Assembly: GCA_014843695.1 (NCBI GenBank)
Contig: CM026398.1
Location: 43,455,372 to 43,519,371 of the forward strand
Length of the DNA: 64,000 nt
Source: Archivesica marissinica
Taxonomy: Eukaryota > Mollusca > Bivalvia > Venerida > Vesicomyidae
Direction of reading: 5' to 3'
Shown: piece by piece, positions 6,602 through 61,830 of the stretch
Layout of the letters: each line of letters opens with the position of its first letter
Position numbering within the stretch: position 1 is the first letter of the stretch
Position numbers and translations under genes: made by a program
The notes under the pieces: model-generated
Seen by the model: only the letters and a program-made list of their open reading frames with translations
What the model was told of the DNA's origin: nothing
The model's database searches: none

Positions 6602-9600
6602 CTGCAAAGTGAATACATTATTGTCAGTTTAATCATTGTATTCATGACCGTTACAAGGGATACAAGTTTTGTAATGGCTGTAAGAATTTGCATGTTAGAG
6701 AGTGTTGACAGAGTATTACAGACAATTTTTGGAATATTGTTTACAAGGTTGTATTACCTCCCCTGCCATGCATTAAACCACAAACATGTTATATTACCTC
6801 CCCTACCATGCATTAAATCATAAATAGGTTGTATTACCTCCCAGGCCATGCATTAAATCATAGATAAGTTGTATTACCACCCCTGCCATGCATTAAACCA
6901 TAGACAGGTTAAATTACCTCCCCTGTCATGCATTAAACCATAGACAGGTTGTATTACCTCCCCTGCCATGCATTAAACCATAGATAGGTTGTATTACTTC
7001 CCCTGTCATGCATTAAACCATAGACATGTTTTATTACCAACCTCGTTCCTGTATTTTGATGTGTAGCTGTACATATCCAGTAAGGCACTGGACTGGTGGA
7101 ACTGCCCAGAAAATTTCTGCAAAAAGGAACAGTTATTACAATTCAAATTGAAGGAGCATGCTATCGCTATAAGACTTGATGGCTTTCATGTATAAATAGT
7201 ATTGCTACTACACATTTTTGAGGATATGTAGTCCAGTGGTAACACACTGGACTGGTAATCCAGGGATCGCAGGTTCAATCCCCCATCTGACCCTAATAAA
7301 ATTAACAGTCTTTCAGATGGGACGTTAAACCGAGGTCTCGTGTCGGTGCTTTACACCGTGCACGTAAAAGAACCAGAGGAGATTCTGGAATGGGTCTCTG
7401 TCTGTATCATACACTATCCTCCAAAATCTAAAATAACTAATCTCTTCAGGAGGCGTCGCTCATATGGGCAACCGGTAGCGACGATAAATAAACGTAAACA
7501 AAAACAAAAAACATGCTTGAGGAACAATTTTAAATTATTTCCGAGTTAAATTATTTCAGATTAGTCCAAAAATAATCGTTGATGTTTCATGTTATTTATG
7601 ATTTTATGTTGCTTTACAGATCAAATGAATACTCCAGTAGTAAATTGGTACACTTAGAACACATTTAGAAAAACAGAATTGGTACACATACAATAAATTG
7701 CTTCCCCAGATTTACTGATCATGCTATAGTAGCTATGTTACAAGACAGGGATCATTCTAGAGGGCGATATTGTCGCCCTAGGGACCCTAACTTCGCCCTC
7801 TGGTGGCCCCACTTCTTTTTTTTTGGTTTTTACGATTTTCAAACAAAATGTTGTCTAGTAAGATACACTGGCCCATTATAAAGCACTCCTTCTATTCAAA
7901 TGTTGTATTTAATGGTTGTACTGTGCATTTTAACCCTATTTTGCAGAAGTATATTAAAGAACACCATTTAAGGAAGCGATCACGCGCTTTCTCCCTTCTC
8001 CCAAAAATTCTGACCTAGAATGAACCCTGAAGTATTTACTTGGCACGTAATTGGCACAGCGCCGGTGGCAAGATCCGCGTAAATGGGGATATTAAATTTT
8101 ATGACATTTTCATGGGGGACTCTATCTAATCTGGTCAAATCATATGCTGTCTCCGTGGCCTAGTGGTTAATGGTGTCCACCTACGAAGCGGGAGGTCGAA
8201 GGTTCGAACCTTGTCAGGGGTTTGTTCTGATATGGCCAGTTGATGAGCCGCCAGCTAGTTAAATAATGGTTACCGATTGCCTACCAGCCTAGCATACAAG
8301 CATAGGATTCGGGAAGTACTGATGTTCATAAAAAGAGGTGTGTCATGAGTCAGAAATGGCTGGCCCTTTAACTAGGGGTGACACTATAATAAACAAACAC
8401 TTTACTTTACTTATAATAGCAAATTTTATACAGTCCACCCTCCCAACAACACCCACAATGAAGGGGATTACTTCTGTCTAGCAGAGAATCTGGACAGCCG
8501 AAGAGACACGACTGGACTGGCATGCAAGCTGAACAACAGAAAGACATGGTACTGCACACATGCAAGACTTCTGTGTACAATATGTATTTCGATCCTGGCC
8601 CGGGATAGCGGGTGTCGGTGTATACATGTGACACTTTCTGTGTACAATATGTATTTCGATCCTGGCCTTGGATAACGGGTTTCGGTGTATACATGTGACA
8701 CTTTCTGTGTACAATATGTATTTCGATCCTGGCCCGGGATAATGGGTGTCGGTGTATACATGCAAGACTTTCTATGTACAATATGTATTTCGATCCTGGC
8801 CCGGGATAATGGGTGTCGGTGTATACATGCAAGACTTTCTGTGTACAATATGTATTTCGATCCTGGCCCGGGATAACGGGTGTCGGTGTACACATGCAAG
8901 ACTTTCTGTGTACAATATGTATTTCGATCCTGGCCCGGGATAACGGGTGTCGGTGTACACATGCAAGACTTTCTGTGTACAATATGTATTTCGATCCTGG
9001 CCCGGGATAACGGGTGTCGGTGTACACATGCAAGACTTTCTGTGTACAATATGTATTTCGATCCTGGCCCGGGATAACGGGTGTCGGTGTACACATGCAA
9101 GACTTTCTGTGTACAATATGTATTTCGATCCTGGCCCGGGATAACGGGTGTCGGTGTATACATGCAAAACTTTCTGTGTACAATATGTATTTCGATCCTG
9201 GCCCGGGATAACGGGTGTCGGTGTACACATGCAAGACTTTCTGTGTACAATATGTATTTCGATCCTGGCCCGGGATAACGGGTGTCGGTGTACACATGCA
9301 AGACTTTCTGTGTACAATATGTATTTCGATCCTGGCCCGGGATAACGGGTGTCGGTGTATACATGCTAATCTTTCTGTGTACAATATGTATTTCGATCCT
9401 GGCCCGGGATAACGGGTGTCGGTGTACACATGCAAGACTTTCTGTGTACAATATGTATTTCGATACTGGCCTGGGATAACGGGTGTCGGTGTATACATGC
9501 AAGACTTTCTGTATACAATATGTATTTCGATCCGGGATAACGGGTGTAGGCGCACACATGCGTGTCTTTCTGTGTACAATAGGTATTTCGATCCTGGCCC

Positions 9601-12600
9601 GGGATAACGGGTGTAGGTGTACACATGCAAGACTTTCTGTGTACAATATGTATTTCGATCCTGTCCTGGGATAACGGGTTTCGATGTATACATGTGACAC
9701 TTTCTGTGTACAATATGTATTTCGATCCGGGATAACGGGTGTAGGCGCACACATGCGTGTCTTTCTGTGTACAATATGTATTTCGATCCTGGCCCGGGAT
9801 AATGGGTGTCGGTGTACACATGCAAGACTTTCTGTGTACAATATGTATTTCGATCCTGGCCCGGGATAATGGGTGTAGGTGTACACATGCAAGACTATCT
9901 GTGTACAATATGTATTTCGATCCTGGCCCGGGATAACGTGTGTCGGTGTACACATGCAAGACTTTCTGTGTACAATATATATTTCGATCCTGGCCCGGGA
10001 TAACGGGTGTCGGTGTACACATGCAAGACTTTCTGTGTACAATATGTATTTCGATCCTGTCCTGGGATAATGGGTTTCGATGTATACATGTGACACTTTC
10101 TGTGTACAATATGTATTTCGATCCTGGCCCGGGATAACGGTTGTCGGTGTACACATGCAAGACTTTCTGTGTACAATATGTATTTCGATCCTGGCCCGGG
10201 ATAACGGGTGTCGGTGTACACATGCAAGACTTTCTGTGTACAATATGTATTTCGATCCTGGCCCGGGATAACGGGTGTAGGTGTACACATGCAAGACTAT
10301 CTGTGTACAATATGTATTTCGATCCTGGCCCAGGATAATGGGTGACGGTTTATACATGCAAGACATTCTGTGTACAATATGTATTTTGATCCTGGCCCGG
10401 GATAACGGGTGTCGGTATATACATGTGACACTTTCTGTGTACAATATGTATTTCGATCCTGGCCCAGGATAACGGGTGTCTGTGTACACATGCAAGACAT
10501 TCTGTGTACAATATGTATTTCGATCCTAGCCCGGGATAATGGGTGTCGGTGTACACATGCAAGACTTTCTGTGTACAATATGTATTTCGATCCTGGCCCG
10601 GGATAACGGGTGTCGGTGTACACATGCAAGACTTTCTGTGTGCAATATGTATTTCAATCCTGGCCCGGGATAACGGGTGTTGGTGTATACATGCCAATCT
10701 TTCTGTGTACAATATGTATTTCGATCCTGGCCTGGGATAATGGGTGTCGGTGTATACATGTGACACTTTCTGTGTACAATATGTATTTCGATCCTGGCCT
10801 TGGATAACGGGTTTCGGTGTACACATGCAAGACTTTCTGTGTACAATATGTATTTCGATCCTGGCCTGGGATAATGGGTGTCGGTGTATACATGTGACAC
10901 TTTCTGTGTACAATATGTATTTCGATCCTGGCCTTGGATAACGGGTTTCGGTGTATACATACAAGACTTTCTGTGTACAATATGTATTTCGATCCTGGCC
11001 CGGGATAACGGGTGTCGGTGTACACATGCAAGACTTTCTGTGTACAATATGTATTTCGATCCTGGCCTGGGATAACGGGTGTCGGTGTATACATGTGACA
11101 CTTTCTGTGTACAATATGTATTTCGATCCTGGCCCGGGATAACGGGTGTCAGTGTACACATGTCACACTTTATGTGTACAGCTTGAGCTTAGATCCGAGT
11201 TTCGGTATATACATGTACCTGTGAGACATTTTGTGTAAGGTACGAGTTTAGATCCTGATCACTGATGGCGGGTCTCTGCTTCATCTCCTCGAAGTACTGA
11301 TGCACCATGGTCTTGTAGCGAGGTATGTCCTTAGCAAACAGCAGTTTGTTGGACGGCGACGCCTTGCAGACAAAAGAGAAACAAACAGATATTACATAGG
11401 TCATGGTAAATTATTGCTAGCTTGTCGCTCGATATAGAAACTGGGTGCTCTCATGCATCAAATATTTAATACTTTTGTAAATTGGCAATAAAATATATCA
11501 ATAATTTATATTATATATATATGTAAAGTACATGCTTCATGGCCCACGTTGGTGTAAAGTGCAGGCTTCACACCCCATGTTGGTGTAAAGTATAGGTATC
11601 ATGCCCCATGTTGGTGTAAAGTACAGGCTTCATGCCTCACGTTGGTGTAAAGTGCAGGCTTCACACCCCATGTTGGTGTAAAGTATAGGTATCATGCCCC
11701 ATGTTGGTGTAAAGTATAGGCTTCACGCCCCATGTTGGTGTAAAGTATAGGTTTCATGCCCCATGTTGGTGTAAAGTATAGGCTTCACACCCCATGTTGG
11801 TGTAAAGTACAGGCTTCATGCCCCATGTTGGTGTAAAGTATAGGTTTCATGCCCCATGTTGGTGTAAAGTACAGGCTTCATGCCCCATGTTGGTGTAAAG
11901 TACAGGCTTCATGCCCCATGTTGATGTAAAGTACAGGCTTCATGCCCCATGTTGGTGTAAAGTACAGGCTTCATGCCCCATGTTGGTGTAAAGTATAGGC
12001 TTCACGCCCCATGTTGGTGTACAGTATAGGCTTCATGCCCCATGTTGGTGTAACGTATAGGCTTCATGCCCCATGTTGGTGTAAAGTATAGGCTTCATTG
12101 CCCATGTTGGTGTAAAGTATAGGCACCATGCCCCATGTTGTAAAGTATAGGCTTCATGCCCCATGTTGGTGTAAAGTATAGGCTTCATTGCCCATGTTGG
12201 TGTAAAGTATAGACTTCATGCCCCATGTTGTTGTAAAGTATAGACTTCATGCCCCATGTTGTTGTAAAGTATAGGCGTCATGCCCCATGTTGTTGTAAAG
12301 TATAGGCTTCATTGCCCCATGTTGATATAAAGTATAGACTTCATTGCCCATGTTGGTGTAAAGTATAGGCTTCATGCCCCATGTTGTTGTAAAGTATAGA
12401 CTTCATGCCCCATGTTGTTGTAAAGTATAGGCTTCATGCCCCATGTTGGTGTAAAGTATAGGCTTCATTGCCCCATGTTGATATAAAGTATAGGCTTCAT
12501 GCCCCATGTTGGTGTAAAGTATAGGCTTCATTGCCCCATGTTGGTGTAAAGTATAGGCTTCATGCCCCATGTTGGTGTAAAGAATAGGCTTCATGCCCCA

Positions 12601-15600
12601 TGTTGGTGTAAAGTATAGGCATCATGCCCCATGTTGGTGTAAAGTATAGACTTCATGGCTCATGTTGGTGTAAAGTATAGGCTTCATGCCCCATGTTGGT
12701 GTAAAGTACAGGCTTCATGGCTCATGTTGATGTAAAGTATAGGCTTCATTGCCCATGTTGGTGTAAAGTATAGACTTCATTGCCCATGTTGGTGTAAAGT
12801 ACAGGCTTCATGCCCCATGTTGTTGTAAAGTATAGGCGTCATGCCCCATGTTGGTGTAAAGTATAGACTTCATTGACCATGTTGGTGTAAAGTATAGGCG
12901 TCAGCCCCATGTTGGTGTAAAGTATAGGCTTCATTGCCCATGTTGGTGTAAAGTATAGACTTCATTGCCCCATGTTGGTGTAAAGTATAGGCTTCATGGT
13001 ATTTTCTTTTCTTCGTAGGCTGTACCGTATATGTATTTATATGGTGGGATATTGTAGATAAAGATGAATTTACCGGGCCGAGCACCAGGTTAGTAGTAGA
13101 ACAGCTGTCCATTAGTGTCTGAGCAACGACAGAGAGGCAGGAGTTGACGATGTGCGGCTTGTGAACATCAAACACAAACTCAGGATTCTTTATGATATTC
13201 ACCCAGAAACGCAACAACAGGCTAAAAATAAACACAAGAAAGGCAACACTGGGCTAAAAATAAACACACAAAAGGGAACTTTGAAGCCAAAATTAATCAC
13301 ATGAAAACAAGAAAGGCAACACAAGGCTAAAAATAAACACAATAAATATAACACCAGGATAAAATAAATATCAGATATGCCACACCAGGCTAAAAAATAA
13401 CATTCGGAAATGCAACAAAATAAACATATATATGTATGTATGTACATCGCATTCTTAAAAGCCAGGTATTGCACAGTATTGCCATATTTCAGTTTTATAT
13501 TCGACATTTTTAAATGATATAAGTATATATAATATTTATACAGACGGATCTGTAGTCCAGTGGATGTAGTCCAGTGGTAACATGCTGGACTGGTAATCCA
13601 GGAATCGCAGGTTCGATCCCCCGTCTGACCATAATAAAATTAACAGTCTTAACAGATGAGACTTAAAACCGAGGTCTCATGTTGGTGCTTTACAACTGTG
13701 CATGTAAAAGAACCAGAGGAGACTCTGGAATGGGTCTCTGTCTGTATCATTGCACTATCCTCCAAAACTCTAAAATGACTAATCTCTTCAAGAAGCGTCG
13801 CTCATATGGGCAACCGATAGCGACGAAAATTAACGTAAAACACAAACACACACGATATAAGTACCGGTATTTAATATTTGGAGAGTATCCTTCATTATTG
13901 GTTGTTTCTCTGTACATGATCTGACATACCTGTTACACTTCCATGTATGTAAAACATCGGGATCTGTAACACCACACCTGGCAGCGGAGCTATCTAAGAA
14001 ATCAAACAGGTACTTGATGATGATTGGTGGCTCCTCCCCTACACAAAGCACTGCCTCAAACAGGTCATCAATGTATTTCTGCAGCGTCCCCTGTGTTAAT
14101 AAGCAGGTTTATAACAGGTCATCAATGTATGTCTGCAGCGTCCCCTGTGTTAATAAGCACGTTTATAACCAATTCTTACAGACATTAGGGTTGAACATAT
14201 TTATGTTCTATCTACATATGTACATGATTATTTACAACAATTGAAAAAAGGAATTGGACAGAAAGCTATACAGCTGATGGTTGTCCTCTCCTTAGACATT
14301 TTGTATCCCTTACAAAATATTCCGTGAAACAGAAGATCTGTCTCTAATGTTGTAATAACTTGTGACTCTACACTTTTTTGCATTCTTTGTATATATTGTA
14401 TGTATATTCTGTGTCAAAATAGAGCAAAATAAAATATGATTAAACTAAAAACAGAAAGTGTTGCCAATGAATGTATGTTCATGAGGTCAATGAACATGAT
14501 TTACAGATAATTCACACAATCATAATTATTTGAACAAGGTTGAAATCGGGATGGCCAGCTAATTCCTCACAATCGGGAAGGCCAGCTAATTCCTCACAAT
14601 CGGGATGGCCAGCTAATTCCTCACAATCGGGAAGGCGAGCTAATTCCTCACAATCGGGAAGGCCAGCTAATCCCTCACAATCGGGAAGGCCAGCTAATCC
14701 CTCACAATCGGGAAGGCCAGCTAATCCCTCACAATCGGGAAGGCCAGCTAATTCCTCACAATCGGGAAGGCCAGCTAATCCCTCACAATCGGGAAGGCCA
14801 GCTAATCCCTCACAATCGGGAAGGCCAGCTAATTCCTCACAATCGGGAAGGCCAGCTAATCCCTCACAGCATGTAACCACTCAACCACTCAATTATAATT
14901 TGAATATTATAATTGAATAAGTCATAGAGATAATCTAAATAAGCTACAAGCTTTCGATTTAATCCATTTTTGTTTTGTATACAATAGATATGTACTGTAC
15001 ATTATGAACAGTTAATATGCTTAAACAAATGGAATTATATTTGCACAGATAGGAACTACCTTTCGGAGCTTCATGTACAAATTAGCTACAAATAGAGTTT
15101 AATGACAGAACTACCTTAGTGTGGCATCCGTGGTCCAGTGGTAGAGCATCGGATTTGGAATCCATCAGTCCCGGTTCATAACTGGTCAGGCCACATACAC
15201 GTATGTAGTATGAGCAAGGCACCTCACACACATTGCTTAGTACTGGTTAACCACTTAGGTCGACCACACACACACGCACACACGCACACACGCACACACA
15301 CACACCTTTGTATTGAACAGTCTGGGCAGGAATAAATCACTACAAATCAGCTACAAATAGAGTTTAATGATGGAACTACCTTTGTATTGATAAGTCTGGG
15401 CAGGAATAAATCACTGGCTAACTGTACTTCATCATCTGTCTGGTGTTTCTTCGTCTGAAACAGTTTAAAGTGCTTTCATCAGACTCGTTGCTACACAAAG
15501 AAAACGGGAGGCATTTGCCTATGGGGCGCCGTTTTGCTATTAATTCAGTATTTATGGATATCCATAATTCCATTATTGGATATCCATAATTCGATATATG

Positions 15601-18600: not shown

Positions 18601-21600
18601 ATGTTGTCATGGAAACAGTACTTGTACACAATGTGACGACTTGCTGGTGCAGCATGGCAGGTAACCCATGTTGTCATGGAAACAGTACTTGTACACAATG
18701 TGACGACTTGCTAGTGCAGTATGGCAGGTAATCCATGTTGTCATGGAAACAGCACTTGTACACAATGTGACGACTTGCTAGTGCAGTATGGCAGGTAATC
18801 CATGTTGTCATGGAAACAGTACTTGTACACAATGTGACAACTTACTAGTGCAGTATGGCAGGTAATCCATGTTGTCATGGAAACAGTACTCGTACACAAT
18901 GTGACGCTTTGCTGGTGCAGTATGGCAGGTAATCCATGTTGTCATGGAAACAGTACTTGTACACAATGTGACGACTTGGTGGTGCAGCATGGCAGGTAAC
19001 CCATGTTGTCATGGAAACAGTACTTGTACACAATGTGACGACTTGCTAGTGCAGTATGGCAGGTAATCCATGTTGTCATGAAACAGCACTTGTACACAAT
19101 GTGACGACTTGCTAGTGCAGTATGGCAGGTAATCCATGTTGTCATGGAAACAGTACTTGTACACAATGTGACAACTTGCTAGTGCAGTATGGCAGGTAAT
19201 CCATGTTGTCATGGAAACAGTACTCGTACACAATGTGACGCTTTGCTGGTGCAGTATGGCAGGTAATCCATGTTGTCATGGAAACAGTACTTGTACACAA
19301 TGTGACAACTTTCTAGTGCAGTATGGCAGGTAATCAATGTTGTCATGGAAACAGTACTTGTACACAATGTGACGCCTTGCTGGTGCAGTATGGCAGGTAA
19401 TCCATGTTGTCATGGAAACAGTACTTGTACACAATGTGACGCTTTGCTGGTGCAGTATGGCAGGTAATCCATGTTGTCATGGAAACAGTACTTGTACACA
19501 ATGTGACGCCTTGCTAGTGCAGTATGGCAGGTAATCCATGTTGTCATGGAAACAGTACTTGTACACAATGTGACGCCTTGCTGGTGCAGCATGGCAGGTA
19601 ATCCATGTTGTCATGGAAACAGTACTTGTACACAATGTGACGCCTTGCTGGTGCAGTATGGCAGGTAATCCATGTTGTCATGGAAACAGTACTTGTACAC
19701 AATGTGACGCCTTGCTAGTGCAGCATGGCAGGTAATCCATGTTGTCATGGAAACAGTACTTGTACACAATGTGACGCCTTGCTGGTGCAGTATGGCAGGT
19801 AATCCATGTTGTCATGGAAACAGTACTTGTACACAATGTGACGCCTTGCTAGTGCAGCATGGCAGGTAATCCATGTTGTCATGGAAACAGTACTTGTACA
19901 CAATGTGACGCCTTGCTGGTGCAGTATGGCAGGTAATCCATGTTGTCATGGAAACAGTACTTGTACACAATGTGACGCCTTGCTAGTGCAGCATGGCAGG
20001 TAATCCATGTTGTCATGGAAACAGTACTTGTACACAATGTGACGCCTTGCTGGTGCAGTATGGCAGGTAATCCATGATCAAGTTTTAAACTACTGTAAAG
20101 GAGCTGCTATTTGCTCGTATTTTAATTTTCCATATTTCACAGTCGCATTAGTTAATGTTCTGTAAAATTTAAACATTGGAAACGTTTTGTGAATTACAAT
20201 GTATATAATTAGCTGATTTGTTTTGTTACATTTCGTGAAATTAAGGAATAACAAATTTCTAACTTTACAAAATGGAAGCGCCTCTAAATGGATATTTAAT
20301 GGATACAGGCAATATGATACAAATATCTGGTTTACCTCCAGCAAGAGAAAGTGCTGATGTTTCCATCTCTCTGTTCAGGCGAAGATTGACCTTTGTCCCA
20401 TCCGGCACATTGTAATGTTGAAGCGTGTTGATTTTCTTCCACAGTCCTTCCTTCAGGCTACAAGCATCTTCATCACTCAAAACACGTCTTGACCCGCCAT
20501 CACCCTCTTCAAGTTCTGAAGAAAACAAGGAAAAGACATGTACCATCGAATCATTCAGTGACAGTGTGTTTTACGTTTATTTATCGTCGCTACCGGTTGC
20601 CCATATGAGCGACGCCTCCTGAAGATATTAGTCATTTTAGATTTTTGGAGGATAGTGCAATGATACAGACAGAGACCTCGGTTTAACATCCTATCTGAAA
20701 GACTTAATTTTATTAGGGTCAGACGAGGGATCGAACCTGCGATCCCTGGATTATTCAGTGACAGAACAACACTTTGTTTACTTAATTTAGTTTAAACTTT
20801 ATTTATTTTACAACGATTACGAAGCAAGTTTTATCAACTTATATTAATCACTCTCGTTGGCGCGGATGAAAGCGTAAATGTGGTCATTCATGTGAGAGGA
20901 AACCGGAGTACCAGGAGAAAACCCACCTGTCCGATCTGGCGCCCACGGTACCATCTCACATATTTCCCGGTCCGAGGATCGAACCTGGGTTGCATTGGTG
21001 AGAAGAGAGCGCTAACCACTGCTCTAATAGGACAGCCTGTTTGTTGTTTACTTAACTCTTTGCATGCTGGGTAAAATAAAGGCTATAAATAATTCAAATA
21101 AGTAGCAGATGAAAATTGGTCAATGTGTTTTCCTTATTTGTACCTGAAAACGCTGGAAGTATGTCTTGTAATTTCATTACGATAGATTTCTAATGAAATT
21201 CCATGACATATTTGACTGTTATTTTCATCGCTAGCATGCAGAGAGTTAAATTAGTAGTGTGTAGAGCCTACATGTACAGCTAGTTATTCTAACAAAAATT
21301 ACTAGTAGTCCAAGGAACAGCCATTTGGAGATACTGTTTACCTATATTAGTGTTGTGTACAGCCATTTGGAGATACTGTTTACCTATATTAGTGCTGTGT
21401 ACAGCCATTTGGAGATACTGTTTACCTATATTAGTGTTGTGTACAGCCATTTGGAGATACTGTTTACCTATATTAGTGTTGTGTACAGCCATTTGGAGAT
21501 ACTGTTTACCTATATTAGTGCTGTGTACAGCCATTTGGAGATACTGTTTACCTATATTAGTGTTGTGTACAGCCATTTGGAGATACTGTTTACCTATACT

Positions 21601-24600
21601 AGTGCTGTGTACAGCCATTTGGAGATACTGTTTACCTATATTAGTGTTGTGTACAGCCATTTGGAGATACTGTTTACCTATATTAGTGTTGTGTACAGCC
21701 ATTTGGAGATACTGTTTACCTATATTAGTGCTGTGTACAGCCATTTGGAGATACTGTTTACCTATATTAGTATTGTGTACAGCCATTTGGAGATACTGTT
21801 TACCTAAATTAATACTGTTGTACAGCAACTTGGAGTGATTGTTTACCTAAATTAGTGCTGTGTACAGCCATTTGGCGATACTGTTTACCTATATTAGTGC
21901 TGTGTACAGCCATTTGGAGATACTGTTTACCTAAATTAGTGCTGTGTACAGCCATTTGGAGATACTGTTTACCTAAATTAGTGCTGTTGTACAGCAACTT
22001 GGAGTTATTGTTTACCTAAATTAGTGCTGTGTACTGTCATTTGGAGGTACTGTTTACCTAAATTAGTGCTGTTGTACAGCAATTTGGAGATATTGTTTAC
22101 CTAAATTAGTGCTGTGTACAGCCATTTGGAGACACTGTTTACCTATATTAGTGTTGTGTACAGCCATTTGGAGATACTGTTTACCTATACTAGTGTTGTG
22201 TACAGCCATTTGGAGATACTGTTTACCTATATTAGTGCTGTGTACAGCCATTTGGAGATACTGTTTACCTATACTAGTGCTATGTACAGCCATTTGGAGA
22301 CACTGTTTACCTATATTAGTGTTGTGTACAGCCATTTGGAGATACTGTTTACCTATACTAGTGTTGTGTACAGCCATTTGGAGATACTGTTTACCTATAC
22401 TAGTGCTGTGTACAGCCATTTGGAGATACTGTTTACCTATACTAGTGCTGTGCACAGCCATTTGGAGACACTGTTTACCTTAATTAATACTGTTGTACAG
22501 CACCTTGGAGTTATTGCTTACCTAAATTAGTGCTGTGTACAGCTGGTCTCTGTGAGTAGGGGACGTTTTTGTAGAGAATCTCAAGCATTTTGCTCTTGGC
22601 TTGCGTGATGGTATCACAATCTAACACCTGCACAGAGATCTGCTTCTCAATGTTGTCAATATAGACAAAGTGCTGAACCTCCAGCGTCTGAAACAGTGAC
22701 GAAATTTATCATTAATTGATTAATTCACTAAAGTGCGAGATATCTTTCATACCTCATGTAGCTAATCAAACCAACAAGAGGGCCTGAAAGTGCCTGGATC
22801 GCTCACCTAAGTTGAAAAACTCAAAATACTATAAAAACATATGAGTGTTCGGGAAGTTTGCACATTCGTTTTAAAACGAATTCACTTAATATTATTATCA
22901 ATATAGCTAGTTTGGTATGTTTATGTGTAAACATATAGGAAATATAGCCAAGAGATTTCTGATGGATGTGATAATGCTGCAAAGTTTCATGTCACAGCAC
23001 CCATATTTTGGTATGCAACAAACAGCTATCATTAGATGTATCCACATGCCAATTAGTATCTGTATAAGTAAAAGTAAAGTGTTTGTTTATTATAGTGTCA
23101 CCCCTATTGAAAGGGCCAGCCATTAACGACTTATGAGACACCTTTTTATCTATACATTGTACTTCCCGAATCCTATCCTTGTAAGCCCAGACAATGCTGG
23201 TAGGCAATCGGTAACCATTATTTAACTAGCTGACGGCTCACCAACAGGCAATATCAGAACGAACCCCTGACAAGGTTTGAACCTTCGACCTCTCGTGCCA
23301 TAGATGGACACCCTTAACCACAGAGACGTGTATGTGTTCAAGTAGTGAATAAAAAATTATATGGTTCAGATAACAATCCTGGAAATATATAACAGGCCGT
23401 GAATTAAATTACTTAAATTATGTATCGTCTGTATATAAATCAGGTATTGAAGTGGTATGGAAACTTTATACAGTCAAATCTGTGTTAGTGATCACCTCTA
23501 TTAAGCAGCCAACCTGTATTAAGCAGCCAGTTTCCACATTCCCAATATGTTGTTTTACTATACATTTGACCTCTAATAAGCAGCCACCTGTGCTAAGCAG
23601 CACTTTCTTTGGTTCCCTTGGCTGGCTGTTTAAGACAGGTCTGACTGTATGTACATTAATACAAATTTATTTTAGCTCGATTGCGAAACAAGTTCTTTCA
23701 ACTTATATTAATCACTCTCGAGACCTCATTCCTGATGGAATCCATCGCCACGAGGGAGAGAAGAGGCAACGTGGAATTTAAATGCCTTGCCTAAGGACAC
23801 GATCATAATGGCTCCAGCGGGGCTTGAACTCCGGACCTTTCGCACCTGAAGCGAACGCGCATCCACTGCGCTATCACGACTTCCATGTACATTGACGCAT
23901 AACCTCTGTAAAAGGGAACATTGAAGATTATATATATATTTGTACAGAAAATATAATGTAACAAAATCTTACGAGAGTGACAGGGTTTATTTCAGTATCA
24001 GCCGAGGTGAAAAGTTTATCCTCGGACAGGGTGTACTTCCCACAGCTAGAGATGTAGTCTATCGGTCCTTTCTCTGTCTGTATCTTGATGGCCTTATACA
24101 GGATGTACAGAGCTGAGCCTGATCGTTCCTTCAAATAGTGATACAGACAGACAGACAGCCAGTGAGTTAGCAGTTTCTCGCCTACACATTCTGACCTGCG
24201 GTAGAAATATTACATTTATAAGAACACGTGCGTGAATCGGCTAGCTTAAATGTTGAGTTTTTAAACAGCCCATGTGTTGTTCACATAACTACTATGTATA
24301 AATTTACTGGTGGAGGAGAAGTTTTGGTGTCTGTGAGGCGATGTTTTTGTGTATATTATTGATGGGTATAAGCTTACCGGCGGAGGAGAAGTTTTACCAA
24401 CTGTGAGGCGATGTTCTTGTCTATATTATTTATGAGTATAAACTTACCGGCGGAGGAGAAGTTTTGGTGTCTGTGAGGCGATGTTCTTGTCTACATTATT
24501 TATGAGTATAAACTTACCGGCGGAGGAGAAGTTTTGGCGTCAGTGAGGCGATGTTCTTGTCTACATTATTTATGAGTATAAACTTACTGGCGGAGGAGAA

Positions 24601-45600: not shown

Positions 45601-48600
45601 TATCTGATTAAGAACAATATTGTTTTAACTAATTAAGAACAAAACTGTGTTATCTAATTAAGAACAATATGTGTTATCTGATTAAGAACAAATCTGTGTT
45701 ATCTAATTAAGAACAAATCTGTGTTATCTAATTAAGAACAAATCTGTGTTATCTGATTAAGAACAAATCTGTGTTATCTGATTAAGAACAAACATGTGTT
45801 ATCTGATTAAGAACAAATCTGTGTTATCTAATTAAGAACAAACATGTGTTATCTAATTAAGAACAAATCTGTGTTATCTGATTAAGAACAATATTGTTTT
45901 GACTAATTAAGAACAAATCTATGTTATCTAATTAAGAACAAATCTGTGTTATCTGATTAAGAACAAATCTGTGTTATCTAATTAAGAACAAATCTGTGTT
46001 ATCTAATTAAGAACAAATCTGTGTTATCTGATTAAGAACAAATCTGTGTTATCTAATTAAGAACAAACATGTGTTATCTAATTAAGAACAAATCTGTGTT
46101 ATCTGATTAAGAACAATATTGTGTTATCTAATCAAGAATGATACATAAAACAGAAATAGTTGCAACAGCATAGTTAGGATTGGGAAAAAAGTTACACAGT
46201 AACTTATTTGAATGCCTTTCCTCTGTCTTTGATGGGCGATATAACTATGAGACATGGTAAGCATTTTACAAACCTTGCGGGCACTGCCTCAACACTCCGG
46301 CGATTCCTCTCGCCCATTCTACGAGAATCATGAGATGCTGGAACGTGTATGTTCCTGGGGCTAGGGCAGTAGATCAAACCAGCCATGTCATCTCTAGTAC
46401 AGTCCTGTGTTGCACAATACTTATATAATACAAGGTGTCAAAACAATCACTCAAACCAGCCATGTCATCTCTAGTACAGTCCTGTGTTGCACAATACTTA
46501 TATAATACAAGGTGTCAAACCAGCCATGTCATCTCTAGTACAGTCCTGTGTTGCACAATACTTATATAATACAAGGTGTCAAACCAGCCATGTCATCTCT
46601 AGTACAGTCCTGTGTTGCACAATACTTATATAATACAAGGTGTCAAACCAGCCATGTCATCTCTAGTACAGTCCTGTGTTGCACAATACTTATATAATAC
46701 AAGGTGTCAAAACAATCACTCAAACCAGGTATCTCCTCCACTATGTGCATGTCGTGACCTCGGCACAGCTCACAACAGGAATATGGTTCAAGGACTTCGC
46801 TGACGGAAGCCGCGCCATCGGAATCGCGTGACTCTATACATTTACATATAGAGTACCATACGACTAACTTCCCTACTTGGCGAGACAGCAACATTTAGTG
46901 CTGGCGACGACGGATAACTGGTTTTCTTTTAGCTGGCTCCTTCAAGGGGAGCGATCTCCTTCAAGGAAGACGGTGGGACGCAGACTTCTTGATGGCGTGA
47001 GGACCCCAGCGAAGAAACCGGAAACATTATTGCTGCTGTGAGCTGACAAATCGTGGAGGATGTGGTCCTACAAGGGACCCCTTCGAAAGATGATACAGGA
47101 CTTGTCACTCTGAGAAGAACGAAGATGCCTTTCCAGTTGTCTACATAAACAACTTAGATGACAACGTAAACTTCTTAGAGAAACCAGTCGCCTAAATGCC
47201 TCGGCGGAGGCAACAATAAAGAAAACTTATTTGGAAATCACAGATCACAGACACAGATTGGAAATGTTTGCAATAACTCAATTCTAACTACAATGATAGC
47301 GTGGAATCCATCAGTATGATTCTAGTACTAACCATTCACCAGTTGCAAGCCTAATAATGCTTCTGTTTGTTTGTTCGGGTTGACACATTTTGGTCTCTAT
47401 CGCAAGCGGGCAGTTTACCTGACAACACCTTTCCTGGGCAGGCTCAAGTGGTTAACAAGTACTGGGTGCACCAACCTCCATAAGAAACTGCCAACTTTTT
47501 CATATCAATGAGATACGGCCTAAGAAGGGCTCGAACCCGTGACCATCAGTGATGATAGGTTACAGTGGTATACAAATCAGCAATCGTTAACAGGTGCACC
47601 AACCTCCATAAGGAACTGCCAACTTTTTCATGTAAATGAGACATGGCCTGAGTGGAGCTCGAACCTGCAGCCATCAGTGATGATGGGTTACTGTGGTATA
47701 CAAGTAAGCAACCGTAACCACTCAACCACGGAGTCATACTCAATCACGTTTTTCTAATCACGTTTATACATACAATGTATTAAGAGATATTGAATCAGAA
47801 TTGTTGGACTCCCAGAAATTCAGCAAAAGTGTTCAGACCACATTAGTTGCCACTTACAATTGTGCAAGGGTAGCATGTAAAGAAATTGGGATCTTAATAT
47901 ATAAATAATGAGAGAAGCTTGTGATCCAGTAGCTACACATACAGTCTGTGTTAGTGGGCACCTCTATTAAGCAGCCAACCTGTATTAAGCAGCCAGTTTC
48001 CAGATTCCCAATATATTGTTTTATTATACATTTGACCTCTATTAACCCTTTGCGTGCTAGCGGCAGATAAAAATCACTTTTGCAAATGGCATAGAGCCGG
48101 ATCAAATGGCACAGATAGTGCCATCTGAGGCTCTATGCTGTTTGCTATTCGGATAGTGGAGCTAAAACACTTGGCTGAATAGCAAACAACATAGATCCTG
48201 ATCAGTCATGGTGTTATGTCACGGCTGATCTGGATCTATGTTGTTTGATTTTATTTACTCAGCAGGAAAAGAGTTAAGCACCCACCTGTGCTAATCAGCC
48301 ACTTTCTATGGTTCACTTGGCTGACTGCTTAAGACAGGTTTGACCGTACATGTATATATATCAACACATTTATATAGAGTACAGTACCTCTGTTTTAGAC
48401 TTAACTCCATCAAACACTGCATAGATCTTCGGTTCCTGTATAGCATATAGATTGGTACCTTCTATTGTCAGAATTCTTCCTCCGCTGAAAGGTAACAGTA
48501 CACAGTTCAACTTGTCTATACAGGTCACCCGCGGGAATAGAAACATTTTACTGGGTATTTATTGTCATGTGACCTTTATATGAAGTAACATTAGTAAACG

Positions 48601-51600: not shown

Positions 51601-54600
51601 CCCCCCAGGGGGGTAAATATCCTAGGAAATATACCCCCCTGGGGGGGAGATTTCCTAGGAAAAAATACCCCCACCCTGGAAATTTACCCCCCACTACACA
51701 TTGAAATACGTTTTTTTAAACAAATACATATTACCCAACCAATGAAAACAATAAAACAATAAAATTGACATCAATGTCAGTAAATCTTTATTGCAAAAAT
51801 GGTCAATTTGTTATATATTTCACACACAAAAATTTGGTTAAATGATACTAGATGTCCAATTAAAAAATATCTCACCCTTTTGATCAAAAACCAAACAATC
51901 AAATCTATAATTTGTTGTTAACAAATATATTTTAATATGAGGTAAAACAGTAATATATATTATACTCAAATCATCATACCTAAAATAAAGAAATATATTA
52001 ACAACAACAAAATTGAGGGGAGGGGGGGAAATTTTCAGGGATGGGGGGTATATTTCCTAGTAATTCTAGGGGGGGGGGGGGAGATTTTCAGGGGGCGTAA
52101 ATTTCCTGTTACACCGGGTTAGATACTCAGTCACAGTATGCATGCAGTTTCCATCCGTCACAGTATGCATGCAGTTTCCATCCATCACAGTATGCATGCA
52201 GTTTCCATCCGTCACAGTATGCATGCAGTTTCCATCCATCACAGTATGCATGCAGTTTCCATCCGTCACAGTATGCATGCAGTTTCCATCCGTCACAGTA
52301 TGCATGCAGTTTCCATCCACGTGGCATCTCACACAGATTAACTAGTATGAGTTAACAGCTTAGGTAGGCTAAGCCTGGCTGGGAAAGATATCTAAGTCCC
52401 TACAAGGAGTTTCAAATTGAATAGAAAATAAGAATACCCACATTTTACGAACTATGTAGAAATATTTAAGATTGTTTCTAGCTTGCATCAACGTTGCATG
52501 TAACCTATTCCGCATGGAAGTGTTAGGTAACATGGTGCATGTCTGTCCACCTATCTTAACATCTTGTTCCCGGCCTGTATCCAGATAATCACCAGATATG
52601 GTAACAGTTGTACCTCCGGACTGAGGACCATGTTCTGGCTTTATAGCAGTCACTACTGGGACCTACAATAAATAAGTAATATATTATAGATTCGCTTCAG
52701 GGGCTAAAGATCCGGAGTTAAAGGCCCGCTGGAACCGTTACGATTGTGCCATTAGGCAAGGCATTTAAATTCCACATGCCTCTTCTCTCTCCCTCATGGC
52801 GATGGATTCCATCAGGAATGAGGTCTCGAGAGTATTTAATATAAGTTGTAAGAACTTGTTTTGCAATCGAGCTAAAATAAATTTGTAATAAAATAGGTTA
52901 CAAGATCTATTAACAGAGGTAGGGGCCACCACTGGGATCTACAATAAATACTATAATTCTACATGTATCACATAATAGGGTACCAGATCCTGTGATAGAG
53001 ATAGGGGCCATCACTGGGATCTACAATAAATACTGTAATTCTACATGTATCACATAATAGGGTACCAGATCCTGTGATAGAGATAGGGGCCATCACTGGG
53101 ATCTACAATAAATACCGTAATTCTACATGTATCACATAATAGGGTACCAGATCCTGTGATAGAGATAGGGGCCACCACTGGAATCTACAATAAATACTGT
53201 AATTCTACATGTATCACATAATAGGGTACCAGATCCTGTGATAGAGATAGGGGCCACCACTGGGATCTACAATAAATACCATAATTCTACATGTATCACA
53301 TAATAGGGTACCAGATCCTGTGATAGAGATAGGGGCCACCACTGGAATCTACAATAAATACTGTAATTCTACATGTATCACATAATAGGGTACCAGATCC
53401 TGTGATAGAGATAGGGGCCACCACTGGGATCTACAATGAATACTGTAATTCTACATGTATCACATAATAGGGTACCAGATCCTGTGATAGAGATAGGGGC
53501 CACCACTGGGATCTACAATAAATACCATAATTCTACATGTATCACATACATAATAGGGTACCAGATCCTGTGATAGAGATAGGGACCACCACTGGGATCT
53601 ACAATAAATACTGTAATTCTACATGTATCACATAATAGGGTACCAGATCCTGTGATAGAGATAAGGGCCACCACTGGGATCTACAATAAATACCGTAATT
53701 CTACATGTATCACATAATAGGGTACCAGAGCCTGTGATAGAGATAGGGGCCACCACTGGGATCTACAATAAATACTGTAATTCTACATGTATCACATAAT
53801 AGGGTACCAGATCCTGTAATAGAGATAGGGGCCACCACTGGAATCTACAATAAATACTGTAATTCTACATGTATCACATAATAGGGTACCAGATCCTGTG
53901 ATAGAGATAGGGGCCACCACTGGCATCTACAATAAATACCGTAATTCTACATGTATCACATAATAGGGTACCAGATCCTGTGATAGAGATAGGGGCCACC
54001 ACTGGGATCTACAATAATGATAGAGGTAAGTAAGCCCCAGCCTCTAACAACTGTTAGTTTTCTTTAAACTGTACCGGTATATCAGATATATCGTGTGTCT
54101 TGTTATGAGAATAAACGAGAATGGTTCGCTTAATAGAACATAAACTTCCATTTATCGTCGCTACCGGTTGCCCATATGAGCGACCCCTCCTGAAGAGATT
54201 AGTCATTTTAGATTTTGGAGAATAGTGCAATGATACAGACAGAGACCCATTCCAGAGTCTCCTCTGGTTCTCTTACGTGCACAGTGTAAAGCACCGACAC
54301 GAGACCTCAGTTTAACGTCCCATCTGAAAGACTGTTAACTTTATTAGGGTCAGACGGGGGATTGAACCTGCGAACCCTGGATTACCAGTTCAGCGTGCTA
54401 CCAATGGACTACCGATCCGTCTGTTTGTGCGCTATCCACTCTGACAAACAGTGTTAGTAAATGTTTGTTTGTTTGTGCGCTAACCACTCTGACAAACAGT
54501 GTTAGTAAATGTTTGTTTGTTAGTGCGCTATCCACTCTCACAAACAGTGTTAGTAAATGTTTGTTTGTTTGTTCGGGTTTTACGCCCTCCTCAGCACCAT

Positions 54601-57600
54601 TTTGTGATATATCGCCGGCTGGTAGTTTACCTAATAACACCTTTCCTGGGCAGGCTCCTTTGGTTAACCAGTACTTGGTGCACCAACCTCCATAAGAACT
54701 TTTTGCATATAAACATACACAGCATGAGCCGGGCTCGAACCAGTGACCATCAGTGATGATAGGTTACAGTGGTATACAAGTCAGAGACCTTAACCACTCG
54801 ACCATACCGCAGACTATGTTAGGAAATGATCTGGGGCTTTAAGTCATTATATTATGATATCGTAAAATACCAGATATATAATAAGGATAACACAATAACT
54901 TATCAGGAAAACCCTACTCATCCGCCCATCAATATAATCACTCTATGACACTGTACACACTTAAAACATTACTAGATTATATAATACATGAAGTCTCAAT
55001 TGTTTCAGTACATTATAAACAATATCTACTGACTGGGCAATACAATACTACCACACAGTAAAATGCTTGTGTCATTATAAACAATATATACTGACTGGGC
55101 AATACAATACTACCACACAGTAAAATGCTTGTGTCATTATAAACAATATCTACTGACTGGGCAATACAATACTACCACACAGTAAAATGCTTGTGTCTGT
55201 ACATTATAAACAATATATACTGACTGGGCAATACAATACTACCACACAGTAAAATGCTTGTGTCATTATAAACAATATCTACTGACTGGGCAATACAATA
55301 CTACCAATAGTAAGATGCTTGTGTCTGTACATTATAAACAATATCTACTGACTGGGCAATACAATACTACCACACAGTAAAATGCTTGTGTCTGTACATC
55401 TGACAAAGCAAAAGCAGGAAGTACTTACCCTGAACTGGAAGTTCTGAGAATATTGTCCTGTAGCATTGTTACCCATCGCTACAGTTACCTTGCCCTCTGT
55501 TACATTGTAGCTTGGGCCCAAGTTACACACTATCCTGAAATCATGTTTAATTGCAGAGTCGATTACTTTATCAACATATGTTGTCTACAACAATTCGAAA
55601 TAAAAATTATTAATATTGTTATTTTCTCAAATTCCATAATATTAAATTATTACAGATTTGTTTGTTCGGGTTTTACACCTGCATCAGCACCATTTTTGGG
55701 ATATATCCCGGCAGGTAGTTGACCTAACAACACCTTTCCTGGGCAGGCTCCAGCGCCTAACAAGTACTTGGTGCACCAACTTCAGTAAGAAACTGCAACC
55801 TTTTTACATAAATGAGACATGGCCTGAGCTGGGCTCTTTCATATAAATGAGACATGGCCTGAGTAGGGCTCGAACCTGTGACCATCAGTAATGATAGGTT
55901 GCAGTGATATGTAAGACAGTGACCTTAACCACTTGACCACAGAGGCGGTAAATTGTTACAGAATCAAGCATGGCCAGAATAAAATTTATTACAGTTTATA
56001 GCAAGTACATGCTTATTGAGGATATGTAGATAGTTACCTTATACCCGGTACATAGAGATCTCTTATTGACATACATGGTATACCAGCAATGGTCACTGCA
56101 TCTATGGTGTCGTTGAAGACTGCGCCGAGATTCACACCCTCCAGCTCTATCATGGTGGTAGAATTCACATGTGCACTCAGTGGATATACCTGCATGTCAA
56201 AGTTGGTGAGATCGGACAAGTAATTACATGACACCTATTATATATACCTGTGTGCCAATGTTGGTGAGGCCAGACAGGTAACTACACAACACTCATTAAA
56301 TATACCTGCATGTCAATGTTGGTGAGGCCAGACAGGTAATTACATGACACCCATTATATATACATGTGTGCCAATGTTGGTGAGGCCAGACAGATAATTA
56401 CATGACACCCATTATATATACCTGTGTGCCAATGTTGGTGAGGCCAGACAGGTAATTACATGACACCCATTATATATACATGTGTGCCAATGTTGGTGAG
56501 GCCAGACAAGTAATTACATGACACCCATTATATATACCTGTGTGCCAATGTTGGTGAGGCCAGACAGGTAATTACATGACACTCATTATATATACATGTG
56601 TGCCAATGTTGATGAGGCCAGACAGGTAATTACCTGACATTCATTAGTGTTTGTGTTTTATTGACATCAATAGGTTAAGGATACAGTTGATAATTATAAG
56701 AAATTCCCTGGTAAGCACAGACTAACTTCGGTTTAACCTTTACATTTACAATTGCGAAACAAGTTCTAACAACTTATATTAATTAGCCCCGTTAGTGCGT
56801 ATGTGTGAGTATATAATATATATAAGTCCTTCAAGTGGGAGGAAATTGTTTACCGTTACAATTTCAGACCACATAGCTGGGTACCAGACAATTCCAGACT
56901 ACATAGCTGGGTACCAGACAATTCCAGGACATAGATGGGTACCAGGCAATTCCAGACCACATAGCTGGGTACCAAACAATTCCAGGACATAGATGGGTAC
57001 CAGGCAATTCCAGGACACACAGCTGGGTACCAGACAATTCCAGACCACATATCTGGGTACAAGACAATTCCAGACCACATATCTGGGTACCAGACAATTC
57101 CAGGACATAGCTGGGTACCAGACAATTCCAGACCACATAGCTGGATACCAGACAATTCCAGGACACATAGCTGGGTACCAGACAATTGCAGGACACATAT
57201 CTGGGTACCAGACAATTGCAGGACATAGATGGGTACCAGACTTCCAGACCACATAGCTGGTACCAGACAATTCCAGACCACATAGCTGGATACCAGACAA
57301 TTCCAGGACACATAGCTGGGTACCAGGCAATTCCAGACCACATAGCTGGATACCAGACAATTGCAGACCACATAGCTGGATACCAGACAATTGCAGGACA
57401 TATATGGGTACCAGGCAATTCCAGGACACATAGCTGGGTACCAGGCAATTCCAGGACATAGATGGGTACCAGGCAATTCCAGGACACATAGCTGGATACC
57501 AGACAATTGCAGGACATATATGGGTACCAGGCAATTCCAGGACACATAGCTGGGTACCAGGCAATTCCAGGACATAGATGGGTACCAGGCAATTCCAGGA

Positions 57601-60600
57601 CATAGATGGGTACCAGGCAATTCCAGGACACATAGCTGGACACCAGACAATTCCAGGACATATATGGGTACCAGGCAATTCCAGGACATAGATGGGTACC
57701 AGGCAATTCCAGGACATAGATGGGTACCAGGCAATTCCAGGACACATAGCTGGGTACCAGACAAATCCAGACCACATAGCTGGGTACAAAGACAATTCCA
57801 GGACACACAGCTGGGTACCAGACAATTCCAGACCACATAGCTAGGTACAAAGACAATTCCAGGACACATAGCTGGGTACCAAACAATTCCAGACCACATA
57901 GCTGGATACCCGGCAATTCCAGGACATATATGGGTACCAGGCAATTCCAGGATACATAGCTGGGCACCAAACTATTCCAGGACATAGATGGGTACCAGGC
58001 AATTACATGACACATAGCTAGGTACCAGGCAATTGCAGGACACATAGATGGGTACCAGCTAATGACAGGACACACAGCTAGGTACTAGACAATTCCAAGA
58101 AATACCTTCGTAATTTGTGGATCTCCACATTGAGACTCGGTAACATTGCACAGTTTGTCCCTGAATATACAGCTGTCTTCGCACCAGTGACAGTGGTAGT
58201 ACGACTGATAGGTGGCAAAACTCTTACATTGTCCACAGTTACTGGATGGCTGTACCAGATCTCCACACTCGTAAATAACAACTGAAATACAGGGAATAAA
58301 TGACCATTAAATACATGTATGTTTATTAAAGTGTTACCTCTATTTAAAGGGCCAGGCATTACTGACTTATGAGACACCTATTAGTTTACGAACATCAGTA
58401 CTTCCCAAATCCTATCCTTGTAGGCTATTATTTAACTAGCTGGCATGGCAGCTCACCAAACTGCCATGCATTACATAACACATAAATATAACAATTTATC
58501 GAGATAAGCAGAGTAAATTAATCCATATTTCCAGACAATTAGATAATGATAATTATTTGGTGGAGACCAACAGATACTAATATGATATGAACATTGACCT
58601 CAGTGACCTTGGAACCAACCTGTCTGAATATCATCTCGATACAGTGAACCTGGGTACGAAGATATTTATAAACCTTTCTAAATAGGCCATACAAAAAGCG
58701 TAGATCCAGATGAGCCGGCTCGTAACGAGCCGTCTCATCAGGATCTACACTTTTTGCCAGTAATATTACTATTTTTAGACAAAATTACCCATTTTGATAA
58801 ATGAACTGGTCCAAATGCAATTTTCTTATTAATATATTGGTCTAAAAATATCATGCACAAGTCCATGTCAGTTACTTGGTGCTGAATGGGTTAAGGGAAA
58901 CGGACACTGACTATGTAAATCCAATGTACCTCTACTCAACCTATCTTTGCAGGCGTCCACTAAACAAAATTTATAAAAAAAAAATATCGGTCAACAGACG
59001 ACTTATAATATTTGTAGCCAATTCATAATCATACAATATAAATATATTCATATTGTTATTTAATGCATTTTATTGTAGATGATTATAAAGAAATGTATTG
59101 CATAACTATCTGTAATCAAATGTATCAAAAAAGATAATATGAATATTGATACATTGTATTACATGGTTATTGGTTTTTTTTTTTTAACTTTATTTGTTTT
59201 ACAACGATTGCGAAGCAAGTTTTAACAACTTATATTAATCACTCTCGTTGGCTCGGATGAAAGCGTATATGTGGTCATTTGTGTGGGAGGAAACCGTAGT
59301 ACCCGGAGAAAACCCACATGTCCGATCTGGCGACCACCGTACCATCTCACATACTTCCCGGTCCGAGGATCGAACCCGGGTTGCATTTGTGAGAAGCATG
59401 CACGCTAATCACTGCGCTAATCGGACAGCATATTGTTATTGGTTTGCTTCAAATTCAAATACCATGTCTTGTAAAACATCAGGAGACCTAGTAGGAATTT
59501 TGTCAAGTGTATAATTATATGTAGCCAGAGCCCCACTGGAGCCGTTACGATTGTACCCTTAGGCAAGGCATTTAAATTCCACATTGCCTCTTCTCTCTCC
59601 CTCGTGGCGATGGATTACATCAGGAATGAGGTCTCGAGAGTGATTTATATAAGTTGAAATAACTTGTTTCGCAATCGAGCTAAAATAAATTTGTATAAAC
59701 TATAATTATAGCATATTGACGGTGTTCTGGACAAGGCTACAAGGTCTCATACTGCGCTACCTGGCAGGGTATCACCATATAGCATATTGATGGTGTTCTG
59801 GACAAGGCTACAAGGTCTCATACTGCATTACCTGGCAGGGTATCACCATATAGCATATGATGGTGTTCTGGACAAGACTATAAGGTCTCATACTGCGTTA
59901 CCTGGCAGGGTATCACCATATAGCATATTGACGGTGTTCTGGACAAGGCTACAAGGTCTCATACTGCGTTACCTGGCAGGGTATCACCATATAGCATATT
60001 GACGGTGTTCTGGACAAGACTATAAGGTCTCATACTGCGCTACCTGGCAGGGTATCACCATATAGCATATTGACGGTGTTCTGGACAAGACTATAAGGTC
60101 TCATACTGCGCTACCTGGCAGGGTATCACCATATAGCATATTGACGGTGTTCTGGACAAGACTATAAGGTCTCATACTGCACTACCTGGCAGGGTATCAC
60201 CATATAGCATATTGACGGTGTTCTGGACAAGGCTACAAGGTCTCATACTGCGTTACCTGGCAGGGTATCACCATATAGCATATTGACGGTGTTCTGGACA
60301 AGGCTACAAGGTCTCATACAGCATTACCTGACAGGGTATCACCATATAGCATATTGACGGTGTTCTGGACAAGGCTACAAGGTCTCATACTGCCATACCT
60401 GACAGGGTATCATCATATAGCATATTGACGGTGTTCTGGACAAGACTATAAGGTCTCATACTGCGTGACCTGGCAGGGTATCACCATATAGCATATTGAC
60501 GGTGTTCTGGACAAAGCTACAAGGTCTCATACTGCGTTACCTGGCAGGGTATCACCATCAATCTGCGACTCTCCCCACATCACCTGTAAGGCTGTATCCA

Positions 60601-61830: not shown

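Follow-up and report, generated by a model that had tools for sequence, protein, structure and literature searches.

The window analysed here, a 64-kb stretch of the Archivesica marissinica genome (source assembly size 1.54 Gb), carries on its minus strand the 3′ part of a plexin gene, encoding about 60% of the protein. Our exon model, made by hand and by eye from open frames and splice sites, has 26 exons and 25 introns in the window, with AG/GT sites and an unbroken reading frame through the spliced exons. The predicted protein is hit by the Pfam Plexin_cytopl (E 1.6e-135) and also by Plexin_RBD and TIG. A spliced protein-to-genome aligner, with a Dreissena protein as query, reproduced 23 of the 26 exons exactly; the mismatches concern the partial first exon, the exon 13 donor (3 nt) and the stop. 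Among the matches listed, the top protein is plexin-A1-like from Ruditapes philippinarum, with identities of 67 and 77% in the parts that match, followed by proteins of Mya and Dreissena. Exon coordinates below are those of the gene model and the aligner, and the exons and the arrays beside them are given on the minus strand.

More than half of the plexin intron sequence consists of tandem arrays (29.4 of 51.8 kb, a figure that includes a 1-kb gap and small exon overlaps). Interspersed repeats occupy at least 7.5 kb, a third or more, of the 22.4 kb of intron outside the arrays (examples at 59031-59429, 52690-52903 and 27403-27636). The intron preceding exon 12 holds a 9-kb array with a 36-bp unit (32157-41301); it encloses 1,000 N at 36494-37493, so its length is uncertain.

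Arrays that contain splice junctions

We compared each of 36 arrays with each of 51 junctions, 1,836 pairs in all, and scored every pair by its best ungapped alignment running across the junction, with the self match left out. Any match at all was found for 52 pairs. The top 11 scores (86, 71, 55.5, 54.5, 52, 36, 32, 25.5, 20.5, 19.5 and 15) all join a junction to an array of its own intron; in descending order these are the exon 16 donor, exon 9 acceptor, exon 2 donor, exon 18 donor, exon 22 acceptor, exon 4 acceptor, exon 11 donor, exon 23 acceptor, exon 12 donor, exon 6 acceptor and exon 24 donor. The 12th-ranked pair, also within one intron, scored 11.0 and was left uncounted, and the best different-intron pair scored 10.5. 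Aligning array units to their flanking junctions had been put forward as a check by a sequence-only reading of this DNA made earlier, and the similarity does stand above the non-neighbour background (15-86 against 10.5). Exon 21 brings the total to 12 junctions, seven donors and five acceptors, so that 12 of the 50 intron ends in view are affected in this gene. The junction-containing units measure from 32 to about 150 bp.

On the donor side, a 71-bp array (59707..60558, from TRF and the match test) contains the end of exon 2 (60541..60643) with its donor, including 18 exon bases, and a 57-bp array (41616..42891) contains the end of exon 11 (42873..43037) with its donor, including 19. Exon 12 (31837..32101), which holds the apparent membrane span, is the source of a degenerate 22/44/153-bp array (30926..31552) derived from its end and donor. 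The unit of a 70-bp array (24296..24703) comprises 46 bases of exon 16 (24658..24732) and the donor. The end and donor of exon 18 (22522..22687) recur in about 29 copies of a 42-bp unit (21317..22543), and a 67-bp array of about 39 copies (8556..11180) has diverged from the end and donor of exon 24 (11219..11362). Exon 21 (15380..15454) has a single extra copy of its end and donor (15302..15343), with about 35-38 exon bases, lying 74 bp downstream and 86% identical over 42 bp; there is no TRF array here. Another partial copy around the exon 21 donor, mostly of its intron side, is seen at 15073-15122, 265 bp away (84% over 50 bp).

On the acceptor side, TRF and the match test place a 58-bp array (56184..56646) with the acceptor and start of exon 4 (56038..56189), and an 82-bp array (52915..54017) with the acceptor and about 20 bases of exon 6 (52505..52662), which encodes TIG domain sequence; the latter array stops 252 bp short of the exon, with an interspersed repeat in between. 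The near-identical 64-bp (and 77-bp) array at 46374..46711 contains the acceptor and 31 bases of exon 9 (46274..46404). The two remaining cases are short duplications: 2.1 copies of a 54-bp unit (14059..14169) with the acceptor and 32 bases of exon 22 (13930..14090), and 2.3 copies of a 32-bp unit (13205..13279) with the acceptor and 17 bases of exon 23 (13074..13221).

Boundary-spanning units thus occur at both the 5′ and the 3′ edges of exons in the window. They are unrelated to one another (mean local score 13.4 over the 55 pairs of the 11 arrays, against 13.1 for shuffled units), and their seeding was therefore independent. Spread of a single repeat family, for which the best different-intron pair reached only 10.5, is ruled out.

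These results bear out most of what the sequence-only reading had described: all eleven of its exons (2, 4, 6, 9, 11, 16, 18, 21, 22, 23 and 24) hold, exon 21 as a single copy rather than an array, and so do its statements that donors and acceptors are both involved and that unrelated units were seeded repeatedly and independently. The three exons for which it noted weaker traces divide. Exon 12 passes the match test. The 52-bp array beside the exon 15 acceptor (27147..27377) has just a 10-bp overlap in TRF extent, in the minus-strand TRF run only, with no extension score, and the 40-bp array that begins 3 bp from the exon 25 donor (6746..7038) fails. At exon 3 an array lies 1 bp from the donor, a weak trace outside the list of 12 junctions.

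Chance expectation in this gene and at other loci

How many arrays should contain a junction by chance? In our basic null each array is collapsed to one unit and its founding duplication may be seeded anywhere in the introns. Under this whole-intron null 2.2-2.8 of the 31 arrays in the window's plexin gene, hereafter the index gene, are expected to contain a junction, where 11 do (P 3e-6 to 5e-5). Interspersed repeats in the introns, many of which may be younger than the arrays, affect this figure: with them removed the expectation becomes 3.1-4.1 of 31 (P 8e-5 to 0.001), and with each array held in its own intron as well, 3.9-5.2 of 31 (P 5e-4 to 0.007). Assuming half of the intron to be later insertion gives P 0.001-0.011, and assuming two thirds gives P 0.019-0.12. 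When only arrays whose TRF extent runs into the exon are counted, the count is 8 of 31, and P ranges from 0.003 to 0.12 across the nulls. GC-rich seeding was considered as a confound and ruled out; weighting by unit GC moves the whole-intron expectation only from 2.2-2.8 to 2.5-3.1.

An automatic pipeline found 12 of 32 arrays with a junction in the index gene, against 2.9-5.2 expected across the nulls (P 6e-6 for whole introns, 5e-4 with repeats removed and 0.002 within introns); by geometry alone it found 9 of 32 (P 0.001, 0.02 and 0.056 in the same order). The pipeline count differs from the manual 11 of 31 plus exon 21 because the automatic geometric rule counts exon 15. The excess is 4.2-fold for whole introns, 2.7-fold with repeats removed, and 2.3-fold with repeats removed and arrays kept in their own intron. 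It is likely real but moderate, in a gene selected post hoc, noticed for its striking arrays.

One explanation of this excess, proposed in the sequence-only reading, is that tandem duplication starts preferentially at junctions. They would then be mutational hotspots, and polymerase pausing or the junction sequence might be the cause. The persistence of the excess under GC weighting fits this explanation, and the low-copy cases at exons 21, 22 and 23 suggest that births at junctions are still ongoing. Arrays that contain no junction also lie near exons when judged against plain intron length (within 60 bp, 8 of 20 where 4.4 are expected, P 0.03; within 100 bp, 11 of 20 where 6.9 are expected, P 0.018), but this closeness is gone once repeats are removed (8 of 20 against 5.9 expected, P 0.17). 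A general tendency of arrays to hug exons was accordingly rejected, with P 0.02-0.05 for plain length but 0.13-0.19 after removal of interspersed repeats. Weighing further against a hotspot are the post hoc choice of the index gene and the P of 0.02-0.12 reached there if two thirds of the intron is later insertion.

A second explanation yields an excess with no hotspot at all. Deletion of a whole junction array would also remove the splice site that the gene needs, and junction arrays would on that account last longer than others. This would follow from the anatomy of the arrays, and it predicts that junction arrays are older and more diverged; TRF percentages, read informally, show no greater divergence, and we regard such survivorship as improbable.

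A further comparison uses other loci of this genome. They comprise the 5′ part of the index gene, three plexin paralogs, a Na/K-ATPase and a SERCA-like gene. Both the criterion and the list of planned loci were fixed before sequence retrieval; the plan was later extended by the SERCA-like locus and by 5′ pieces of two paralogs. VCP and EEF2, which had been planned, and MYH9 are not in the count. Of the predicted exon rows, 93 of 115 passed the filter (a few exons are doubled in overlapping pieces), and an intron was counted only where both flanking exons passed; exons of the SERCA-like gene were filtered by frame and length, not by identity. One of the paralog loci, PLXE (L020-L024), is a copy from a cluster of diverged plexin-like matches at G000 C13:55.87-56.63 Mb, which suggests tandemly duplicated plexin genes. 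At the Na/K-ATPase locus, two matches to residues 658-734, both at 82%, stand 1.7 kb apart (L019:2165-2395 and L019:3849-4079), as if one exon had been duplicated.

Junction arrays are widespread in the genes sampled. Across 80 introns, 13 of 82 arrays contain a junction, and 12 of these qualify by geometry. The 5′ part of the index gene contributes 0 of 8 arrays. The paralogs contribute 2 of 20 and 0 of 1 (first), 4 of 17 and 1 of 5 (second) and 1 of 7 (third), the Na/K-ATPase 2 of 8 and the SERCA-like gene 3 of 16. The interim count, before the added loci, was 8 of 55. Two arrays in one intron match the same donor, so the independent events may number 12. Of 1,750 different-intron pairs at these loci, 1 reached the threshold of 12 (at a score of 12.5).

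Against the whole-intron null, for which 6.9 such arrays are expected, the 13 found are in excess (P 0.017; geometry only, P 0.039). With repeats removed 10.8 are expected (P 0.27), and within introns 11.3 (P 0.33). The ratios for the three nulls are 1.88 (95% CI 1.0-3.2), 1.21 (0.64-2.06) and 1.15 (0.61-1.97). The index gene, chosen post hoc, exceeds the other loci (12 of 32 against 13 of 82, Fisher P 0.022).

The claim that junctions are preferred starting points thus finds an excess in the gene where it was made, and outside that gene, with repeats removed, a ratio of 1.15-1.2 (P about 0.3). The sequence-only reading had named the absence of a genome-wide excess of junction arrays as an outcome that would count against it. 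Over these 80 introns the result comes close to that outcome, but with only 82 arrays a modest preference stays compatible with the count. A preference for junctions is therefore not secured: it amounts to about 2-3-fold at most, and a strong one is unsupported outside the gene that was noticed. We consider a junction hotspot rather unlikely as the main cause of the pattern.

Decoy splice sites, intron age and the edge of exon 16

Among the array copies caught, 119 of 127 keep their GT or AG (for exon 11, 5 of about 22 copies were caught), in agreement with the earlier remark that tens of decoy splice sites lie beside the true ones. With a small scoring matrix built from the real sites of this gene, 27 array sites equal or exceed the median real site, and at 7 of the 12 junctions the array holds a site at least as strong as the junction's own real site. 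Such strength is what one might expect if junction arrays were retained since repeated splice sites reinforce exon recognition, as the sequence-only reading had suggested. The exon 18 array agrees with that suggestion, in that all 28 copies caught keep GT and its splice core is well conserved (rank 0.06 among unit windows). It is an exception. For the nine arrays in which four or more copies were caught, the core has a mean rank of 0.64, where chance gives 0.5 and higher values mean less conserved; the near-invariant exon 9 array, with copies nearly identical, says little about core conservation. The AG is lost in 3 of 7 copies caught at exon 4, and the best donor-like site of the exon 24 array scores 2.8 against 8.7 for the real donor. 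Since the splice cores, averaged over these arrays, show no more conservation than the remainder of the unit, retention for exon recognition lacks support, and we hold it to be very improbable.

Nor do the decoys look kept as coding alternatives, an idea that finds no support for the donor cases. In each of the seven, translation continued beyond the real donor reaches a stop within 1-39 nt, and only 5 of 25 unit lengths are divisible by 3 (taking exon 12 as 153).

Another possibility is that the introns themselves were born by tandem duplication of exon pieces, with the arrays as remains of that birth. The duplications do carry AG/GT signals, as supposed by the intron-gain model set out in the available text of PMC3087553. 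Gain of this kind implies a new intron, absent from relatives. At seven junction-array sites among the junctions of exons 12-26, however, the protein alignment places an intron of one or more of the genome's plexin paralogs at the matching column (the comparison covers the junctions of these exons, at a resolution of one residue and with phase aside). The intron positions common to paralogs mean that the introns at those seven junctions predate the arrays, and birth of the introns in this way is contradicted there. We find it scarcely credible as a general account, the least probable of those considered.

The paralogs also furnish the strongest hint left that certain junctions are liable to duplication. 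The acceptor corresponding to that of exon 23 has a junction-containing repeat in three plexin paralogs (window 13221; L013 near 9308; L021 near 2206). The unit lengths there are 32, 37 and 61 bp, and the surrounding intron sequence differs by eye. The exon 22-like acceptor has such a repeat in two paralogs. Over all mapped junctions there are four such coincidences against 1.5 expected (P 0.05, tested post hoc). This recurrence, at acceptors, is what a hotspot would produce. By eye, some acceptor repeats in the plexin paralogs match the real acceptor across its pyrimidine-rich stretch and the first exon bases.

The array at exon 16 reaches 46 bases into the exon (24296-24732 region), and here the coding sequence itself may be involved. 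Exon 16 and the first decoy end in CCA, and the other three copies found end in CCG. Across the exon 16-17 join the A gives Gln in this gene, where G would give Arg. Arg occupies this position in all 112 plexins bearing the searched motif, 110 of them as Arg-Arg; these came from the best 120 of 2,095 matches, among which closely related vertebrates are numerous. Arg-Arg also stands at this place in the plexin-A1 and plexin-B1 chains. We take this pair to be among the catalytic arginines of the plexin GAP domain; a literature search on plexin arginine fingers returned no result. We tentatively raise the possibility, one we judge to fall well short of an even chance, that array turnover rewrites the coding end of exon 16 by gene conversion at the RasGAP Arg-Arg, that the array archives the ancestral codon, and that junctions are somewhat favoured for seeding. 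The Gln could instead reflect a simple substitution, allelic variation or a fault in the assembly. If the conversion reading were true, the exon edge would be a member of the minisatellite, and exon ends in this clam would be under a repeat-driven evolutionary force.

Mirage minisatellites in a mollusc

Repeats that include splice signals have precedents. The human interferon gene 6-16 contains a minisatellite whose unit includes a splice donor, giving multiple splice donors, and there are reportedly human introns derived from tandem arrays. The closest precedent is found in amphioxus.

According to the available text of PMC3087553, 'mirage' minisatellites are tandem repeats that span exon-intron boundaries in amphioxus Adh3, troponin C and the globins BflGb6 and BflGb9; they occur at both boundary types, carry AG/GT in many repeats and show length instability, and the Adh3 data together with RT-PCR of the globins suggest that they leave splicing undisturbed. 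Similar repeats are described for one more gene, PGBD5 (PMC3902484, available text). The unit lengths given in the accessible parts of these sources are 10-72 bp for Adh3, 150-160 bp for a globin, and 60 and 108 bp for PGBD5 (PMC3087553, PMC3902484). On their sequence we file the clam arrays as mirage minisatellites, here in a mollusc and at high density, because their units span the exon-intron boundary, lie on the donor or the acceptor side, and mostly keep AG/GT. Further traits of mirages are copy-number instability between haplotypes or cells and concerted evolution inside a cluster, boundary copies excepted. As to the second, the clam's exon 9 copies are nearly identical, whereas at exon 16 the exon copy and the first decoy have a base in common that the other three copies found lack. 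The clam arrays differ from the amphioxus repeats in that they belong to a bivalve, affect 12 junctions in one gene as well as several other genes, and are known from the sequence of one assembly.

Titles and abstract openings, in a search that lay mostly outside subscription journals, gave no earlier report of junction-spanning minisatellites in molluscs; an abalone minisatellite has a 27-bp unit and lies within an intron, and the available text mentions no junction (PMC6905558). In human genes within segmental duplications, variable minisatellites lie at exon-intron boundaries, and the accessible part of that report connects them with new introns and altered coding sequence in primate paralogs of recent origin (PMC2812944); in the clam, by contrast, the introns compared are old and the decoys show no sign of being coding. 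A potato RdRp gene is presented, in the text available, as a case of intron gain through tandem genomic duplication (PMC4974935). The clam arrays resemble it in the tandem duplication of sequence with splice signals and differ in the outcome, a new intron in potato, where the clam introns compared predate their arrays.

We think the arrays are probably mirage-type minisatellites that arose when duplications straddled junctions by chance and were tolerated through exon definition. The clam genome would make many short tandem duplications all over its introns, and these would grow into arrays. Where the duplicated stretch straddles a junction, the copy at the exon body would stay in use and the others would become decoys on the intron side. 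Splicing would still join the site at the exon body, paired with the exon's other end as in exon definition, and the mRNA would be unchanged; we propose that junction duplications survive because splicing continues to use that site. Both the mode of duplication and the splicing outcome are what we infer from the arrangement of the copies. Such an origin would require no attraction to junctions beyond about 2-3-fold and no benefit from decoys.

Several results speak for straddling by chance. Matches are confined to the same intron, the units are unrelated, decoy cores are on average unconserved, the seven introns compared are older than their arrays, and the count at other loci is not significant against the repeat-excised null. 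Pulling the other way are the index gene, which stands above all three nulls and above the other loci, the whole-intron P of 0.017 at those loci, the post hoc recurrence at exon 23-like acceptors, and the well-conserved decoy cores of exon 18.

Mirage minisatellites would then not be peculiar to amphioxus. Each clam case may serve as a natural test of exon definition, in which the spliceosome must choose the site at the exon body among near-identical donors or acceptors. Gene predictors should be wary of false exons, which are possible in such genomes.
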